Positions 25,895 through 34,163 of a stretch of 35,763 nucleotides of DNA are shown here, piece after piece. Under the pieces are notes generated by a model that ran no database searches, was not told the DNA's origin, and was given only the letters and a program-made list of their open reading frames with translations. The stretch is from an uncultured bacterium. Lineage in GTDB: Bacteria > Zixibacteria > MSB-5A5 > CAIYYT01. The position numbers were made by a program, and so were the translations under genes. Within the stretch, counting starts at the first letter, position 1, and every line of letters starts with the position of its first letter. Location of the stretch: contig CAIYYT010000058.1 in the NCBI GenBank assembly GCA_903930455.1, forward strand, positions 1-35,763, read 5' to 3'.

Positions 25895-26347
25895 ATGCTG
25901 AAAGAGTTCAAAGAGTTTGCGATGCGTGGCAACGTCGTCGACATGGCGATCGGTATCATTATCGGCGCGGCATTCGGCTCAATTGTCACTTCGCTCGTTG
26001 CCGACGTGATCATGCCACCGATCGGATTGCTTCTGGGCAACGTTGATTTCTCCAATCTCTTCGTAACTTTGAGAAATGGAGCCGCGGCGGGACCATATTC
26101 ATCGGTGGCGCAGGCCAAAGCCGCCGGCGCCGTGACCCTCAACTATGGACTGTTCATAAACGCGGTAATCAGTTTCCTGATAGTTGCGTTTGCAGTCTTT
26201 ATCCTGATTCGCGCGATCAATAAGCTCAAACGTCCGGAAGTCAAGCCCGTAGAAGTGCCTGCCACCAAAGAGTGTGCTTACTGCTATTCTACGATTCCGA
26301 TCAAGGCGGTCCGCTGCCCGGCCTGCACTTCGGAACTGAAAGCATAG
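25895..26347 (+). CDS. mscL: Large-conductance mechanosensitive channel MscL with zinc ribbon
   Basis: A 150-residue MscL: N-terminal helix and TM1 [20 protein letters not shown] (10-29), periplasmic loop 55-80, TM2 [20 protein letters not shown] (87-106), then instead of the usual charged C-terminal coil alone there is a four-cysteine ribbon, CAYC (127-130) and CPAC (141-144). The channel opens under membrane tension to release osmolytes. The zinc-ribbon tail recurs in some MscL homologues of non-model bacteria. GGAGG seven bases before ATG 25895 gives a strong start. A bidirectional terminator follows. Confidence 0.96.
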
Positions 26348-26455: not shown

Positions 26456-27094
26456 CTACTTCCCTTTGCGGATGTCGGTCGAATAGCCGGGGAATGTACT
26501 CGCTTCGGGATTGCAGTATTTCTTGGCGTTGTTGATTGCTGTCGCTGCTTCAGCACTGGCGATCGTGATAAAATTCATCTCCTTGGGTTTGGCAATGACA
26601 TCACCACAGGCAAACAGGCCCGCTAGGTTGGTTTGCATGTTGGCATCGACAACGACACCGAGTTCGTTCACTTTCAGACCGATCTTCTTGAACGAGTCGA
26701 GCAAGACATTGTGCTTCTTCTGAAGATTCTGCAAAGTGCCGATTGCCAGCACCACGGTTGTGGAGAAATGATCGTTTTTGTCAGTCGAGATTTTCCAGAC
26801 CTTCTTGGTATTGTCAAAGGCCAGCGTGTTAACCTTCTCGCCTTTGCAGATCGTATGATCATACGCTGCCGCCTGCTCGATGAATCTTTCTGCCAGTTTT
26901 TCGGCGGTAATCAGCACAAAACCGGCGACGTCACGCAATACTTCGTTAGGGTATTCATGCACCAATGCGCCACCAAGAGCCTTGGTCGCTTCGATAACCT
27001 TGGTTCTGGCATCGCGCAGTCCAGCGTAGAAGGACCCGAACAGTCCCGCCGGTCCACCGCCGATAATCGTGATATCATAAACTTCTGTTGGCAT
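26456..27094 (-). CDS. Miniature TrxR-like flavoprotein lacking the NAD(P)H domain
   Basis: A 212-residue FAD protein of the thioredoxin reductase/ferredoxin-NADP reductase type 2 superfamily. The FAD N-terminal motif is IIGGGPAGLFGSFYAGLRDA (9-28), and the C-terminal FAD segment has NLAGLFACGDVIAKPKEMN followed by ASAEAATAINNAKKY. Between them the protein runs straight from VVLAIGTLQNL to GVVVDANMQTN: the central NAD(P)H-binding domain with its second GxGxxA motif (normally about 110 residues) is missing, and there is no CxxC redox pair. Normal relatives have 300-340 residues. The joined segments read smoothly and the GGAGG site before ATG 27094 is strong, so it looks like a real minimal protein, not a fragment. 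It is the last gene of the iscS-iscU-ferritin array, so a partner there may feed it electrons (inference). Confidence 0.85.
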   Translation of the reverse strand: MPTEVYDITIIGGGPAGLFGSFYAGLRDARTKVIEATKALGGALVHEYPNEVLRDVAGFVLITAEKLAERFIEQAAAYDHTICKGEKVNTLAFDNTKKVWKISTDKNDHFSTTVVLAIGTLQNLQKKHNVLLDSFKKIGLKVNELGVVVDANMQTNLAGLFACGDVIAKPKEMNFITIASAEAATAINNAKKYCNPEASTFPGYSTDIRKGK

Positions 27095-27146: not shown

Positions 27147-27644
27147 CTATTCCTCCATCATTGCCGAGCCGTCATAGCTGAACCAGTCGGTATGACCGCG
27201 CAAGGATTCACGCTCGGCGGCGAGCAACTCATAGTGGCTATCTTCTTCGGCGACCAACTCGGCGAAGACTTCTCTAATGTCCTTGTCGGTGGCCTTGTCC
27301 TCACCGGATTTGTAATGCCTGGCGGACAAGCGCTCAGCTTCCAAAGCCAACTCGATGAGCCGAAACGTATCCTTCTCTGCCAGCGGCTTGTCACCGAAAG
27401 CATCCTTGAAAACACCGAGTCCTTGGGACGGCAAGTTTGTAGCTTCACCGCCGACACACTTGGCGTAAAGAGTACGCAGCCGGCGCTCGTGATTCATTTC
27501 GTCATTCGCCAGTTGCTCGATCTTCTTGCGCGCATCAGGATGCACGATTTTCTTCGCCAGCGTTGAATAGAAGTTCTGTCCCTCAATTTCGGTCTTGATG
27601 CCGAACTTGATTATTTCCGCGATTTCATGCTTGGGGTCGGACAT
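27147..27644 (-). CDS. Ferritin-like diiron protein (rubrerythrin-type domain)
   Basis: A 165-residue four-helix bundle with diiron ligands in EIEGQNFYSTLA, LANDEMNHERRLRTLY (ExxH), LALEAERLSARHYKS and AELVAEEDSHYELLAAE (ExxH). It ends in the GHTDWFSYD tail often seen in rubrerythrin-like proteins of anaerobes. No rubredoxin domain is present, so an external electron donor is needed for peroxide reduction; alternatively it may store or hand over iron. It sits 17 bases after iscU and 52 before the flavoprotein gene, so iron delivery or oxygen protection for cluster assembly is a reasonable inference. GGAG precedes ATG 27644. Confidence 0.88.
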   Translation of the reverse strand: MSDPKHEIAEIIKFGIKTEIEGQNFYSTLAKKIVHPDARKKIEQLANDEMNHERRLRTLYAKCVGGEATNLPSQGLGVFKDAFGDKPLAEKDTFRLIELALEAERLSARHYKSGEDKATDKDIREVFAELVAEEDSHYELLAAERESLRGHTDWFSYDGSAMMEE

Positions 27645-27661
27645 ATCATATCTCCATCGGA

Positions 27662-28072
27662 CTATACTTCGAAACTTCCGGGCTTCTGTTCCTGCGACTG
27701 GTTATACTGCTCCAGCGCCTTGATCAGCGCCTCTTCGGCCATCACCGAACAGTGCATCTTGACCGGCGGCAGACCGTCAAGCGCCTCGGCGACCGCCTGA
27801 TTCGATATCGACTTGGCTTCCTCCAGCGACTTGCCTTTGAGCATTTCGGTCAGCATTGAGGAAGTGGCAATGGCGGCGCCACAGCCAAAGGTTTTGAATT
27901 TCGCATCGACAATAATGCCGTTTTCGATTTTGAGGTATAAGCGCATCATGTCGCCGCAAGCGGGGTTACCAACATCCGCCACGACAGTGGCGTCGGCAAT
28001 CTCTCCCATATTGCGGGGATTGACGAAATGATCCATCACTTTTTTGGAATATGGCGAAGCACCTTCAGGCAT
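27662..28072 (-). CDS. iscU: Iron-sulfur cluster scaffold IscU/NifU-like
   Basis: A 136-residue IscU-type scaffold. All assembly residues are present: C39 and D41 (GNPACGDMM), C64 (FKTFGCGAAIATSS), H107 and C108 (VKMHCSVMAEEAL). It builds Fe-S clusters on three cysteines and passes them on. I place the start at ATG 28072 behind GGGAG; an in-frame ATG at 28108 would add twelve residues that the family lacks and has no ribosome site. It follows the IscS-like gene by 110 bases and precedes the ferritin-like gene. The scaffold is intact, in contrast to its partner, whose PLP lysine is missing. Confidence 0.93.
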   Translation of the reverse strand: MPEGASPYSKKVMDHFVNPRNMGEIADATVVADVGNPACGDMMRLYLKIENGIIVDAKFKTFGCGAAIATSSMLTEMLKGKSLEEAKSISNQAVAEALDGLPPVKMHCSVMAEEALIKALEQYNQSQEQKPGSFEV

Positions 28073-28182
28073 AATCACTCCCACTACAGATACGTTGGTC
28101 AAGGACATATCTATAGTATAGTAATTTATGCAAAATGCGTCCGGTTGGTACTACTTTCTTGGGCGATTTAGGATTCTAATTG

Positions 28183-29409
28183 TCATTGATACGGATTCTT
28201 CCCCTTCAGCTTGTCCGCCCACAAGGGAGACATGGCCAGCAGACGTTCGACAACCTGCGGAAAGATCTGAAGGAAATAGTCAACTTCGTTTGTGGTATTG
28301 CCCTTGCCCATCGAAACTGTGAGTGAACCGGAGCAGTACTCGGCAGGCACACCAACCGCGGTAAGGACATGTGATGCCGCCAGATCATGCTCATCCTGCC
28401 CTCTCATATTCGAGGCACACGCCGACCCGGAAGCGGTCTGGATGCCGTAGACATTGAGGAAAAGCAGAAGTGATTCCCCTTCAATGTATTCCATCCAGAA
28501 ACTAACATGACCCGGTAGTCGCTGTGATGGATGGCCAGTGAAATGCAGAAATTCGTATTTCTGTGACAGACCATCCCAGAGTCTCTGTTGCAGGCCGCTA
28601 AGATGTTCATGTCGCTGGGGCATTTCGGTCAATGCCAATTCTGCTGCTTTCGCCATACCAACTATACCCGCCAGATTTTCCGTGCCAGAACGATAGCCGC
28701 GTTCCTGAAATCCGCCGATGATTTGGGCTTCAAGCTTGATGCCGGGCTTCAGATAGAGAGCACCCACACCTTTGGGCCCATAGAAGTTGTGTGCCGAGAC
28801 CGTCAGGGCATCAACGCCAAGATCGACTACGTCGATGGGGATATTGCCTGCTGATGCGGCGGCATCACTATGGAAAAATATCCCTGCTTCCTTCGCGATA
28901 ATGGCTAGCTCCTTGATGTTCTGGATCGTGCCGATTTCGGATGAAGCGTGCTGAATTGAGATCAGCGCGGTGTCGCGGCGCATGGCGGCGTTAAGCTTGT
29001 CGGGATGTACCAATCCCAGATTATCCACCGGCAGCAATGTCAGGTCATAGCCCTCGCGCTTCAGTTTCAAACAAAGATTAATGACGGAGTAGTGCTCGAT
29101 TTCGGAGATGATCAGGTGCTTGCCGCGCTCTTGGTTAGCTTCAAGGTAGCCGCGTATTGCGAGGTTGTTCGCCTCCGTGGCGCCGGAAGTGAAGATGATT
29201 GTCTCGGCGGGGGCGTTGATCAGCCGGGCGACGGTTTCCCGCGATTGATCCAACTCCTGATTGGCCTCGACCCCCTTGGAGTGCACGTGTGATGACGGGT
29301 TGCCAAAACGTTCGGCGAAGTAGGGGAGCATCGCCTCGACCACTCTGGAATCGACCGGTGTAGTAGCGGCATGATCAAAATAGATGTTTCGTTGGGCGTC
29401 AGGTTGCAT
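28183..29409 (-). CDS. IscS/NifS-like cysteine desulfurase homologue with Asn in place of the PLP lysine
   Basis: A 408-residue fold-type I aminotransferase of the IscS family: YFDHAATTPVDSRVVEAMLP, FTSGATEANNLAIRG, H106 in EIEHYSV, GYRSGTENLAG, and the mobile-loop cysteine C331 in TASGSACAS. The residue that should form the Schiff base with PLP (SAHK in normal enzymes) is asparagine N208 in SAHNFYGPKGVGAL (codon AAC, complement of 28786-28788). Other cofactor contacts differ too: Asn-Asn-Glu is SSE (156-158), and the Gln of the HxDAxQ motif is A185 (HSDAAAS). Asp182 and His207 are kept. A known parallel is Archaeoglobus fulgidus IscS, which lacks this lysine. The loop after the cysteine has extra residues (NMRGQDEHDLA). 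GGAGG before ATG 29409 and close packing with iscU show a maintained gene. A normal desulfurase reaction is doubtful. Confidence 0.9.
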   Translation of the reverse strand: MQPDAQRNIYFDHAATTPVDSRVVEAMLPYFAERFGNPSSHVHSKGVEANQELDQSRETVARLINAPAETIIFTSGATEANNLAIRGYLEANQERGKHLIISEIEHYSVINLCLKLKREGYDLTLLPVDNLGLVHPDKLNAAMRRDTALISIQHASSEIGTIQNIKELAIIAKEAGIFFHSDAAASAGNIPIDVVDLGVDALTVSAHNFYGPKGVGALYLKPGIKLEAQIIGGFQERGYRSGTENLAGIVGMAKAAELALTEMPQRHEHLSGLQQRLWDGLSQKYEFLHFTGHPSQRLPGHVSFWMEYIEGESLLLFLNVYGIQTASGSACASNMRGQDEHDLAASHVLTAVGVPAEYCSGSLTVSMGKGNTTNEVDYFLQIFPQVVERLLAMSPLWADKLKGKNPYQ

Positions 29410-29524: not shown

Positions 29525-30538
29525 CTACTTGAAGATAATGAAGGCGACAGAGGCGAGGACGACGATCAGGATGATGATCCAGAGGGCGGGACTGATGCCA
29601 CGCTCTTTGGAAATCGCCACCTTGAAACTGACCGTAGCGCCTGCCGATGCAGAGGGAATCTCCGGTTCGGATGAAAACTTGGCAGCGATCACCTCGGCAA
29701 TACGCGCGATCTGGTTGTCTTCGCTCCAATCGATGGTTACGCGTCTAACTTCCTCGAAATCGGATATTTCCTCCTGATCAATGGCCTTGGCCACAACCAG
29801 CGTGATATTGTCGTTGCCGCCGGCTTCATTGGCTTTGGCAGTCAGCTCCTGCACTAACCGACTGATATCTTCCCCGCAAGAGGTTGCCGCTTTCAGGATG
29901 TCTGTATCGGATACCAGGCCGCACAATCCATCGGAACAGAGCAGAAACACGTCACCTGTGGCGAAACGAATTTGGGAAATATCCGTTCGGACGGCGGTAC
30001 GGGTGCCGAGAGCGCGGGTGATAACATTGCGGTTGACTAGATTTTCCGACTCTTCCTCAGTCAAATGGTGTTTCTCCATTACTTCGCTTATCCAGGAGTG
30101 ATCAATGGTCACCCGCTTGATATTACCATTGCGAATTAGATAAGCACGGCTGTCGCCAACATGGCAGATGGAGGCGACACCATCTTTAAAGTGGCAAGCC
30201 ACAACGGTTGTGCCCATGCCGGTGTGACTGGACGACTGCTTGGCGCGATCAATGATCCGCTGGTTGGCGACGGCGATGACTCCGACGAGGAGCTTGCCCT
30301 CAGGCGTGAGTTCTTCGGGATACGGGAAGCTCTCCCCCGTAAAGAGATCGAGGTCGTGTTCTTTGATGATCGCTGTGATTGTCTCGACCGCCAATTGCGA
30401 GGCGACCTCTCCCGCAGCATGCCCACCCATACCATCGCACACCATTATTAAATTCTGCTCGGTGAGAATGGCGTACGAGTCTTCGTTGTGGTCGCGCACC
30501 TTGCCGACATCGGTGCCACCGGCATAAAGCATCTGCAT
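29525..30538 (-). CDS. Membrane-anchored PP2C-type protein phosphatase
   Basis: A 337-residue PPM phosphatase with the metal-binding motifs in order: VRDHNEDSYAIL, MVCDGMGGHAAGEVASQLAV, SICHVGDSRAYLIR, FLLCSDGLCGLV and GGNDNITLVVAKA. It removes phosphate from Ser/Thr of partner proteins. After the domain (about residue 250) comes a linker and a C-terminal helix (PALWIIILIVVLASVAFIIF), so it is tail-anchored with the catalytic domain in the cytoplasm. It starts ten bases after the FHA gene and belongs with it and the kinase-like gene. All catalytic aspartates are present, so it should be active. Confidence 0.93.
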   Translation of the reverse strand: MQMLYAGGTDVGKVRDHNEDSYAILTEQNLIMVCDGMGGHAAGEVASQLAVETITAIIKEHDLDLFTGESFPYPEELTPEGKLLVGVIAVANQRIIDRAKQSSSHTGMGTTVVACHFKDGVASICHVGDSRAYLIRNGNIKRVTIDHSWISEVMEKHHLTEEESENLVNRNVITRALGTRTAVRTDISQIRFATGDVFLLCSDGLCGLVSDTDILKAATSCGEDISRLVQELTAKANEAGGNDNITLVVAKAIDQEEISDFEEVRRVTIDWSEDNQIARIAEVIAAKFSSEPEIPSASAGATVSFKVAISKERGISPALWIIILIVVLASVAFIIFK

Positions 30539-30547
30539 GTTCTTTTG

Positions 30548-31627
30548 TTACCTCAACAACAAGTATAGGGCAATAATTAGGATCACAATTACGGCTGCCA
30601 TGATTGCGATCAGTCGGGGATTGATCGGTCCGGCAAATGACATTGGCGCGAAGTTTTCTTGCCCACGAAAGCAGAGTCGCACAAAGACTTCTCCGGTCGG
30701 CGCGGGAATTGAGATGATATCCTCCGGAGCGATAAACTCTCGTTGCCCGGGTTCGATTATTTTGCGATTGATATAGGTGCGAAGCTGGCTGCGCTTGTCG
30801 GTCAGATAGAGTCCCTCATCAGTCGATGTGATTGCGCAATGCTCGCGTGAAACCGCCATTTCCGGCTGACCGTGTTCGTCGTGGTCGATCACCAGATCAC
30901 AGAGGGCGCGTTCCCTGCCGATAACGAATTCCTGCGTGTCGATTTCGAAAGCGCGGCCTTTGTGCTGGCCGGTGAGCACACAGAGCGTATAGACGGGTGT
31001 AATCTTCTGCTTCATAGACGCTTGGGGTTGCTCCGGTCTGGCTGCCGGCGGCTCCGGACGTACCGGACGCTCGGGAGCGGCAGTTGATCGATCGCGGTTT
31101 TCAGGAGGAGGCGTGGCTCGCGCCTGCTGTGCTTGTGCCGCTATGGCTTGCGAATCAATGATCATCGTCGCTTTTGCGGCGCCTTTGGGAGCGGGTCTTG
31201 GCGCTTGCGGAGCAGGTGTTGGTTCCGGCTTGGATTCGACAATTGGAATCGCCAGTGCGGTCCCTTGGTCAGGTGGCTTCGGAATGACCGGTTCGGGGTC
31301 GGGGGGCGCAGTTGACACAGGTATTGGTTGTTCCTGCTGTTCGTACTTGACTATCATGATGTAGTCGAGGAAACCAACCTTGTCGCCTTCATTCAAGACC
31401 GTCCGATCGCCGGCGGCAACGCCGTTGATGGTGAAAGCCAGATCGCGGGCGCGGCGTTCAATCTCATAACCCGAAGGTGTCTTGGCTATGAAAAAGAGGT
31501 CGCCCTCTATGCCGACAGTTTCGAGCTGGAAATCGACGGTGCTGCCTGATCCGACACGGGCGATATTGCCATCAAAATTGAAGACCTTATGGTCCATGCC
31601 ATTCTTAAGGACAATAAACTTCGCCAT
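30548..31627 (-). CDS. Tail-anchored protein with two FHA-like domains
   Basis: A 359-residue protein. A divergent FHA-like domain is at 1-95 (FNFDGNIARVGSG, INGVAAGDRTVLNEGDKV) and a recognisable FHA domain at about 205-325 (FEIDTQEFVIGRERALCDLV, then AVSREHCAIT and the TYINRKIIEPGQ turn). Between them lies a proline/alanine-rich linker (about 100-200) and at the end a transmembrane helix (LIAIMAAVIVILIIALYLLL). FHA domains bind phosphothreonine. Its start touches the stop of the kinase-like gene (1 base apart), and PP2C follows within 10 bases, so the three form a unit. The SREHC and GRE residues of the second domain suggest intact phosphopeptide binding; the first looks degenerate. Confidence 0.88.
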   Translation of the reverse strand: MAKFIVLKNGMDHKVFNFDGNIARVGSGSTVDFQLETVGIEGDLFFIAKTPSGYEIERRARDLAFTINGVAAGDRTVLNEGDKVGFLDYIMIVKYEQQEQPIPVSTAPPDPEPVIPKPPDQGTALAIPIVESKPEPTPAPQAPRPAPKGAAKATMIIDSQAIAAQAQQARATPPPENRDRSTAAPERPVRPEPPAARPEQPQASMKQKITPVYTLCVLTGQHKGRAFEIDTQEFVIGRERALCDLVIDHDEHGQPEMAVSREHCAITSTDEGLYLTDKRSQLRTYINRKIIEPGQREFIAPEDIISIPAPTGEVFVRLCFRGQENFAPMSFAGPINPRLIAIMAAVIVILIIALYLLLR

Positions 31628-34054
31628 TTACTTTCTCTTGATCTTGAGTGTCACCACGTAGGTCTCACCGGCTTTGACTTCTTGCTTCTCGTCATCGGAC
31701 TTGTAATCGGGATGGTTTGCCGTGAACTTGTATTTGCCCGGATCGAGACTCAGCTTGAGCATTCCTTCTTTGTCGGTTTTTCCGAAGTCGACGTTGTTTT
31801 TTTCTTTCTTCTTCTCGAGTTGCACTTCGGCGCTGATTGCCACACCGGCGACCGCAGTCTGCTTGTTGTCGAGCACGATAATTTTAACCTGCCCTTTGCC
31901 GGTAGTCGTTTCGACGACTTCGGTCTTTTCTTCCTTCTTTTCCTTTTTCTGCAGGGGACGCATCACGACGGTGATGACGTTTTGGGTCGGTGGAATTAGC
32001 GTGTCGATGTCATGATATCCGTCGGCGGATAGAGCCAGTCGGCAGGGGACGCCGGGGAGCCTGATCGTCATCGGTGTATTCTGGTTGACACTCTTGGTCT
32101 GTCCCTCATATGTAACGCTCTTGATCTTGCCGGAGGCGGTCCTGTCTGAGCCTTCTTCTTTTGCCGTAATCTCAACCGGACGGAATAGGAGCGATCGATA
32201 ACTTGGTTTGCGGCTTGCGAGCGGAGGCAGTTCAAGCTGTAGATTATCGTAGCCGGCCTTGCTGATTGTCAGGAGCGTTTTGTCATCACCAAAATCATAC
32301 TTCAAGGGTGTCTGTCCAATCTCAACACTTGTGGCGGCAACCACGACTGAGGCGCCATCGGGGAGGGTCACGATTTGGGTTTTGGGTCGTTCGGTGAACG
32401 AGCCGCTGATCTGGAAACCTCCGCCTGAAAGCTGGGTCGCCTCATAGCCGGCGGCGCTGAAAGACGCTATATCTGCCAGCACGACCGGTCCGGAACTAAG
32501 CATCGGCTTATTGGGAATCTCCAGAGCAATCTGAAGCGTGTCGGACGGTGAGGCGGCAACCCGGTGAGGAGTCGTTGCCTCAAGCAACTTGCCGTTCAAA
32601 GTGATCTTGGCGCCGACAGGGCTGGAATTGATTTCTACAACGGTCATCATCCGAATCGGCGCTTTGTCGAACTGATCGAAATTGGCAACCACTTGCGTGT
32701 CGGGACAGCATTTGTGTCTTAGCGTCAACATTCCCCCCTCTTTGGCAGAGAAAGTCAGGGGCGTTGTTCCCAATAGGGAATCACCGGCATAGACCGATAC
32801 ACCCTCGGGAATGGTGCTCAACCTGCCGGTTTTCATCTCTGACGCTGTGGAGCTGATGGCGTCCTTGCCACTTTTCTGTGTCAGTTTCTTGATCGAGATT
32901 GCCACGACTGCGACGAACAGAAACATGGCGATAATCCCAAGCACGAGCACCGTCTTGTTTCCACCGAATCCTCCGCGTTTGGCGCGTTTTAAGCGCTCGG
33001 CGTAGGGGACGTTGGAGATGCGGGTTTCCTGACCGGGACGGTCTTTGCGGTTTCCTTGTTGATCGTTTGGAGATTGATCGGTCATCGACTTTGTTCCTTC
33101 TTCTAGGTCTGCCCAAGTGAACACCCGGGTGCGAACGATCTGCCGTTCCTTGTCGGAATACGCCTGCAATTTAGGTGCTGCGGCGAATTTTCCAACAAAT
33201 ACTCTAATTGTTTTATCGGGTGAGACAAGCTGATCACGCAGCAGTTCATCCAATTTTTCGGCAAGGTTTATCGCATTGGCAATGCGCTGCTCCCGACGCA
33301 GTGTCAGACAGCCATCAACGAGTGCATAGACCCGTTTGTCGACGCGAGATCTCAGCGCCGAGAGATCATAGTTGCCGCGTACGATTGTCGCCATCAACTC
33401 GGAGACATTTTGTTGCGGGAACAAGCGTTTGCCGGTGAGCAATTCATAGGCGATCACCCCAAGACTAAAAATGTCGCAACGACGATCAAGCTCCAGCCCC
33501 TGGATTTGTTCTGGCACCAGATAGGCGACCTTATCGACGGTCTTCAATTCACCGGATTGGGGCAAGGCGAAATCTGTGACACGCACACCGCCATTTTCGG
33601 TCAGCAGAATCGTGTCGGGATTTAGACCGAGATGGTACAATGCCAGCGGCTTGCCGGTCAAATGATCGCGCAGATCATGCATTTCCGAAAGCAGATGTGC
33701 GACCTGACTGATCAGGTACAACGCGAGTTCAACCGGCAGGTCGATATCCTGATAGTGTTTGAGTAGCTGCCCCAGGCTCAATGTACGCGGGGCATCGGAG
33801 ATGATGTAGATCGTGCCGTCGTCAGCTTTGCGATGGGAGATGATTTGTTCGTTAGCGGCATGATTGACTTGTGCGAGGGCGAATGTCGCTACCAGATAGC
33901 GACGTACTTCCGGACTGGCAGCCATAGCGCGGGGGAAAATCTCGCGGAGATGCACTGGGCGCGAGAGTTCGTTGTCGCGGGCGGCATGAAGAACACTCCA
34001 GTGAGATTCACGGAGAATACCTTCGGATTCAAATCGATTGTCGAGGATGCGCAT
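31628..34054 (-). CDS. Membrane pseudokinase with PEGA domains
   Basis: An 808-residue protein: kinase-like domain (about 1-290), a low-complexity juxtamembrane stretch, one transmembrane helix (about 366-388), then repeated PEGA-type domains (SVYAGDSLLGTTPLTFSAKE, VGAKITLNGKLLEATTPHRV, and others) and a C-terminal carboxypeptidase-regulatory-like domain (about 710-808). Catalytic residues are changed: the ATP-lysine position is R37 (VHLREI), HRDLKPEN reads HLGLNPDT (141-148; catalytic Asp to Gly, Mg Asn to Thr), and DFG is DFA (161-163). The SLGVIAYELLTGKRLF helix is kept. This predicts a pseudokinase whose extracytoplasmic PEGA part binds a surface ligand. Start at ATG 34054, seven bases after GGAG; longer in-frame starts at 34060 and 34141 are less good. 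It is followed directly by the FHA and PP2C genes. Confidence 0.87.
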   Translation of the reverse strand: MRILDNRFESEGILRESHWSVLHAARDNELSRPVHLREIFPRAMAASPEVRRYLVATFALAQVNHAANEQIISHRKADDGTIYIISDAPRTLSLGQLLKHYQDIDLPVELALYLISQVAHLLSEMHDLRDHLTGKPLALYHLGLNPDTILLTENGGVRVTDFALPQSGELKTVDKVAYLVPEQIQGLELDRRCDIFSLGVIAYELLTGKRLFPQQNVSELMATIVRGNYDLSALRSRVDKRVYALVDGCLTLRREQRIANAINLAEKLDELLRDQLVSPDKTIRVFVGKFAAAPKLQAYSDKERQIVRTRVFTWADLEEGTKSMTDQSPNDQQGNRKDRPGQETRISNVPYAERLKRAKRGGFGGNKTVLVLGIIAMFLFVAVVAISIKKLTQKSGKDAISSTASEMKTGRLSTIPEGVSVYAGDSLLGTTPLTFSAKEGGMLTLRHKCCPDTQVVANFDQFDKAPIRMMTVVEINSSPVGAKITLNGKLLEATTPHRVAASPSDTLQIALEIPNKPMLSSGPVVLADIASFSAAGYEATQLSGGGFQISGSFTERPKTQIVTLPDGASVVVAATSVEIGQTPLKYDFGDDKTLLTISKAGYDNLQLELPPLASRKPSYRSLLFRPVEITAKEEGSDRTASGKIKSVTYEGQTKSVNQNTPMTIRLPGVPCRLALSADGYHDIDTLIPPTQNVITVVMRPLQKKEKKEEKTEVVETTTGKGQVKIIVLDNKQTAVAGVAISAEVQLEKKKEKNNVDFGKTDKEGMLKLSLDPGKYKFTANHPDYKSDDEKQEVKAGETYVVTLKIKRK

Positions 34055-34163
34055 GTTCATACTCCACCCGGGCAATTTCGCGGTGGTCGATTTGCATGGT
34101 CTATCGTGGGCGGCTCCGTCGAGCAGCCGCCGCAATATCAATCAATCCGACAGGAGCAGAGAG

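Follow-up and report, generated by a model that had tools for sequence, protein, structure and literature searches.

The locus studied here raises the question of what a homologue of the cysteine desulfurase IscS can contribute to Fe-S cluster assembly once the lysine that normally binds pyridoxal phosphate (PLP) is missing. The window, which is the whole stretch of 35,763 nucleotides that was analysed, encodes on its minus strand (29409..28183; the first-pass annotation was silent on strand) a protein of 408 residues that was identified as an IscS homologue by gene calling and by family and structure matches (28183..29409). Alignment and a reading of the codon showed that position 208 (28786..28788), the site of the PLP lysine (E. 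coli Lys206), is AAC and specifies Asn. The motifs concerned read SAHN, SSE and HSDAAA, with Ser-Ser-Glu for Asn-Asn-Glu at codons 156-158 (28936..28944) and Ala for Gln183 at codon 185 (28855..28857). The mobile-loop cysteine C331 (28417..28419; E. coli Cys328) was retained, as were H106 and H207, and GGAGG was found upstream of the ATG. The first-pass annotation had described each of these residues, together with a good ribosome site, and all were as it stated, with the AAC codon at 28788..28786 of the minus strand. Beyond these, we found Thr at codon 364 (28318..28320), where the alignment has Arg354 of E. coli, a loss no less telling than the changes above; a gained cysteine at codon 359; and intact paralogues elsewhere in the genome.

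A profile search matched the protein to PF00266 with 273 bits, and its predicted structure (mean pLDDT 87.6, with the catalytic loop at low confidence) aligned with human NFS1, E. coli IscS and Archaeoglobus fulgidus IscS with a TM score of ~0.9. The window protein shares its class-V aminotransferase fold, length, loop cysteine and pairing with IscU with canonical IscS/NifS proteins (E. coli IscS; PDB 9wep), and was ~40-48% identical to the lysine-bearing IscS homologues compared. Unlike these PLP-dependent desulfurases, it lacks the Schiff-base lysine, Gln183 and Arg354, and it missed the NCBIfam equivalog cut-offs for both IscS (370 vs 643 bits) and NifS (436 vs 531 bits). The broad subfamily model NF002806 was the sole NCBI model that it passed, by a margin of 0.4 bits. 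For lysine-less proteins, automated annotation as 'cysteine desulfurase' will probably mislead.

Asn208 is not a sequencing error, since Asn recurs in an orthologue of 93% identity whose genome was assembled independently, and the lysine is missing from more than 90 homologues. Comparison with an orthologue from the same genus gave a dN/dS of ~0.07 (0.038/0.547), and the intact paralogue gave 0.056; lysine-less IscS is under purifying selection, as a conserved group. The earlier view that the locus reflects selected change and not decay was upheld by this value, by the conserved group and by the coordinated nature of the substitutions, and an Asn-containing clade was seen in the alignment. Relocation of the PLP lysine was also considered. 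The only lysine-rich column specific to the lysine-less proteins was position 260, where the window protein has Leu, and no conserved substitute lysine was present in the lysine-less sequences.

Within Zixiibacteriota, the phylum of the window, the lysine-less protein was encoded by 22 of 133 genomes, distributed over seven families. It was also present in 43 of 51 genomes of Deferribacterota, the phylum of Mucispirillum; two further types were found in many genomes of Brocadiia, the class of Scalindua, which are anammox planctomycetes. We compared residues across 120 distinct IscS-like sequences, 90 without the lysine and 30 with it. Gln183 and Arg354 (E. coli numbering) were lost along with the lysine in 90/90 sequences, the replacements at Arg354 being uncharged with the exception of one His, and Asn155 was lost in most. 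In the lysine-bearing set both Gln183 and Arg354 were present in 29/30, the exception being an archaeal protein with Lys but without Arg or Gln. His104, Asp180 and Cys328 were invariant in all 90 lysine-less sequences, and the Thr76 or Ser of the cofactor pocket was kept. A Thermoproteota homologue encoded beside an IscU (L020 3926-5170), which has the lysine and lacks both Arg and Gln, is a possible intermediate. Separately, many matches to a lysine-bearing desulfurase domain lay within long open frames of ~734-1150 aa (for example L003 427-2628), and these are possible fusion proteins.

The window protein belongs to a subtype of 70 sequences made up of Zixiibacteriota, Deferribacterota and Scalindua-type members. 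All 70 carry Trp305 and a gained second cysteine, Cys359 (28333..28335), at a position that is Ala in most lysine-bearing homologues. A His inserted after GNPSS (codon 41, 29287..29289) was present in 68/68 scorable members, and His at codon 301 (28507..28509) in 68/70. An acidic insertion of seven residues in the catalytic loop (28387..28407) was found in the Zixiibacteriota and Deferribacterota members but not in the Scalindua type. Neither Cys359 nor the inserted His was present in the 19 Brocadia-type members or in A. fulgidus IscS.

In a tree made without the trait columns, from one marker and limited sampling, the lysine-bearing sequence 9wep was placed between lysine-less types. An AU test rejected a clade of all lysine-less sequences together with A. 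fulgidus IscS (p 0.008), and with it a single origin shared with that protein; a single bacterial lysine-less clade of Zixiibacteriota, Deferribacterota, Scalindua and Brocadia types was not rejected (p 0.235), even with 9wep placed between types. Because A. fulgidus IscS does not group with the bacterial lysine-less proteins, the triple loss of lysine, Gln and Arg probably arose at least twice, as judged from this one marker and limited sampling.

This bears on the resemblance to A. fulgidus IscS that the first-pass annotation had pointed out. The archaeal protein (PDB 4eb5, 4eb7, 4hvk) is 46% identical to the window protein over the structural alignment, its PDB sequence likewise lacks the lysine, Arg and Gln, and it keeps the loop cysteine and pairs with IscU. 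It differs in having no C359, H41, W305 or loop insertion, and in keeping Asn-Asn-Glu. PMC7585200 describes a change of Lys to Asp, no desulfurase activity, and a Cys that serves as a ligand to the IscU cluster. The shared losses and the IscU pairing therefore stand, but common descent was rejected and the likeness looks convergent. Methanosarcina acetivorans IscS1 (MA0808), encoded beside IscU1, is likewise described as lacking the catalytic lysine and has been suggested to have an A. fulgidus IscS-like role (PMC7585200); its genome has three iscSU copies as well as SufBC.

We then analysed the genes around lysine-less iscS. The adjacent gene of the window encodes an IscU scaffold (27662..28072, minus strand; the open frame could begin at 28108) that scored 196.6 bits against TIGR03419, with a cut-off of 187.9. 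It retains all cluster ligands, and the intact set listed earlier (C39, D41, C64, H107 and C108) was recovered with numbering from M13 (28072), the better-placed start. A rubrerythrin-like protein (27147..27644, minus strand) and a short thioredoxin-reductase-like flavoprotein (26456..27094, minus strand) are the third and fourth genes of a probable operon, and both adjacencies are kept in a relative of the same genus. The flavoprotein has just 212 aa, and its central NADPH domain is apparently missing.

A canonical IscU was present in all 22 lysine-less Zixiibacteriota genomes, and full-length IscU was not found in four relatives without the lysine-less protein (G002, G003, G098 and G113, the last with a partial match). 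The iscU gene adjoins lysine-less iscS in most Zixiibacteriota and in Deferribacterota loci, and in several Brocadia-type loci of Brocadiia it is placed ~600 bp downstream. The two genes are not neighbours at most Scalindua loci, nor in families f2 and f17. The association was tightest in Deferribacterota, where the sole full-length IscU was on the same contig and within ~250 bp of the lysine-less gene in 40/40 genomes tested, with nfu following iscU in most loci opened. SufB/D was not found in 36/37 Deferribacterota, and the family was found in 14/14 control genomes; such absence counts are not absolute, because draft genomes can miss genes. In two members of that phylum, G170 and G171, the same locus position is taken by a lysine-bearing IscS, and no second IscS match was found.

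Other neighbours varied with lineage. In several Zixiibacteriota, NadA (quinolinate synthase, an Fe-S enzyme) is encoded beside iscU (L016 5644-6735, L018, L167, L122). At Scalindua loci (L012 2532-3578, L013), genes for a thioredoxin and a DsbD/CcdA-like membrane protein lie immediately upstream of lysine-less iscS. The PLP synthase genes pdxS-pdxT are directly upstream in family f9 and near in f10 (L008 2225-3815, L165, L168), an odd arrangement beside a protein without the PLP lysine and a hint that the cofactor may remain relevant to it.

A separate lysine-bearing IscS was encoded in nearly all genomes with the lysine-less protein. In the window genome it lies between an Rrf2 regulator and the tRNA thiolase MnmA, and in Deferribacterota its neighbours are Rrf2 and a hexapeptide acyltransferase resembling serine acetyltransferase. 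This gene context fits a division in which intact IscS would provide cysteine-dependent sulfur and the disabled IscS would serve IscU. The lysine-less pair is not the sole system in the window genome, since SufB, SufD and a SufS-like protein are also encoded there. A sulfidic, anaerobic way of life had been offered in support of the assignment. This argument is weak, because dsrA was not found in the window's complete genome, though 12 of the 20 lysine-less Zixiibacteriota tested have a dsrA above the family cut-off. Sulfate reduction as an explanation was rejected for this absence and for the patchy occurrence of dsrA in relatives.

Taken together, sequence comparison and gene context suggest, with a probability of roughly 0.6, that the lysine-less IscS is a catalytically disabled, dedicated partner of IscU in Fe-S cluster assembly. 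With the Schiff-base lysine, Gln183 and Arg354 all missing, it would be incapable of normal PLP-dependent cysteine desulfuration. In E. coli IscS, the substitutions K206A and Q183E abolish desulfurase activity, while R354K leaves it in place (PMC9978102), and the inactivity of the first two makes normal chemistry very unlikely in the lysine-less protein; by this analogy, desulfurase activity would have been lost. Moreover, H2S restores Fe-S assembly in anaerobic E. coli lacking iscS, provided that IscU is present (PMC13015791). The E. coli mutants, A. fulgidus IscS and this sulfide-fed IscU make a docking and thiol partner, with sulfur arriving as sulfide or persulfide, the simplest mechanism. 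The lysine-less protein would dimerise and dock IscU in the manner of IscS, and its mobile loop may present C331 to the growing cluster or to sulfur as it is delivered. Meanwhile the cluster would form on IscU from external sulfide or from sulfane sulfur produced elsewhere, with cysteine-dependent work such as tRNA thiolation left to the separate lysine-bearing IscS. Complex formation with IscU, the part played by C331 and the origin of the sulfur are all elements of this model that we infer. The idea of a non-desulfurase chaperone for IscU, put forward in the first-pass annotation, thus stood as regards the likely lost desulfurase chemistry and the partnership with IscU, and its sulfide- or persulfide-handling aspect belongs to the inferred part.

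Two extensions of this model are more tentative, and we would not bet on them at even odds. Most Deferribacterota, with a single IscU whose dedicated IscS would be unable to desulfurate cysteine, may run an ISC pathway that draws on sulfide or sulfane sulfur and is independent of cysteine, and the Cys359/His subtype may represent a sulfur- or metal-handling site rebuilt in the old PLP pocket.

Several observations count against the partner model, namely the pdxS-pdxT linkage in f9 and f10, the retention of some PLP by E. coli IscS K206A, the presence in nearly all of these genomes of an intact IscS that could serve IscU in trans, the failure to group with A. fulgidus IscS, and the non-adjacent iscU of f2, f17 and most Scalindua. 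Different readings follow from some of the evidence. C331, with C359 as a second thiol, could take sulfane sulfur from intact IscS, a rhodanese or a TusA-like carrier and relay it as a persulfide to IscU, so that cysteine would be the ultimate source. Such a relay overlaps the partner model and differs from it in the sulfur donor only. The co-occurrence of intact IscS in almost every genome, the second invariant cysteine of the window's subtype and the thioredoxin and DsbD/CcdA-like genes at Scalindua loci are consistent with it, but the second cysteine is missing from the Brocadia-type and A. fulgidus proteins and the gene neighbourhoods inspected showed no sulfur carrier, and we consider the relay possible though rather unlikely.

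The intact IscS might instead serve IscU in trans, leaving the lysine-less copy merely to regulate or stabilise the scaffold. An intact IscS is indeed present, and E. coli IscS works with a wide range of partners (PMC8300815). It is nevertheless the lysine-less gene that holds the operon position beside the sole scaffold in 40/40 Deferribacterota, and its invariant loop cysteine would be unneeded by a mere stabiliser, which makes an accessory or decoy role improbable.

Slightly more improbable still is that the protein binds PLP or a PLP adduct non-covalently, for altered PLP chemistry or PLP buffering. Its pocket keeps Asp180, His104 and Thr76 or Ser, some PLP stays on E. coli IscS K206A (PMC9978102), and pdxS-pdxT lies at hand in f9 and f10; however, that linkage is confined to these two families, and every member has lost the lysine, Gln183 and Arg354 jointly, most of them Asn155 as well. 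A pseudogene, assembly error or chance substitution has nothing in its favour except the missing lysine and is refuted by the open frame, the ribosome site, the dN/dS and the same change in independent assemblies and three phyla.

A lysine-less IscS beside IscU is already known from A. fulgidus and M. acetivorans, and has so far passed for a peculiarity of A. fulgidus and Methanosarcina; the present data show it to be conserved across three bacterial phyla. We found no description of the bacterial group in the literature searched, which was that available without subscription, and within that literature its bacterial breadth, the coordinated loss of Arg and Gln, the Cys359 type and the pairing with a sole IscU in Deferribacterota appear to be new. 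If the partner model is true, the Deferribacterota tested assemble their Fe-S clusters on a scaffold that has no desulfurase beside it, and sulfide-fed cluster assembly, a proposed early mode, could be put to the test in named bacteria, Mucispirillum schaedleri among them.

Two further features of the window were noted. An MscL channel (25895-26347) carries a C-terminal CxxC...CxxC tail that resembles a zinc ribbon. Upstream of iscS and on the same strand, a cluster at 29525-34141 encodes a PP2C phosphatase, an FHA protein and a Ser/Thr kinase with PEGA repeats.
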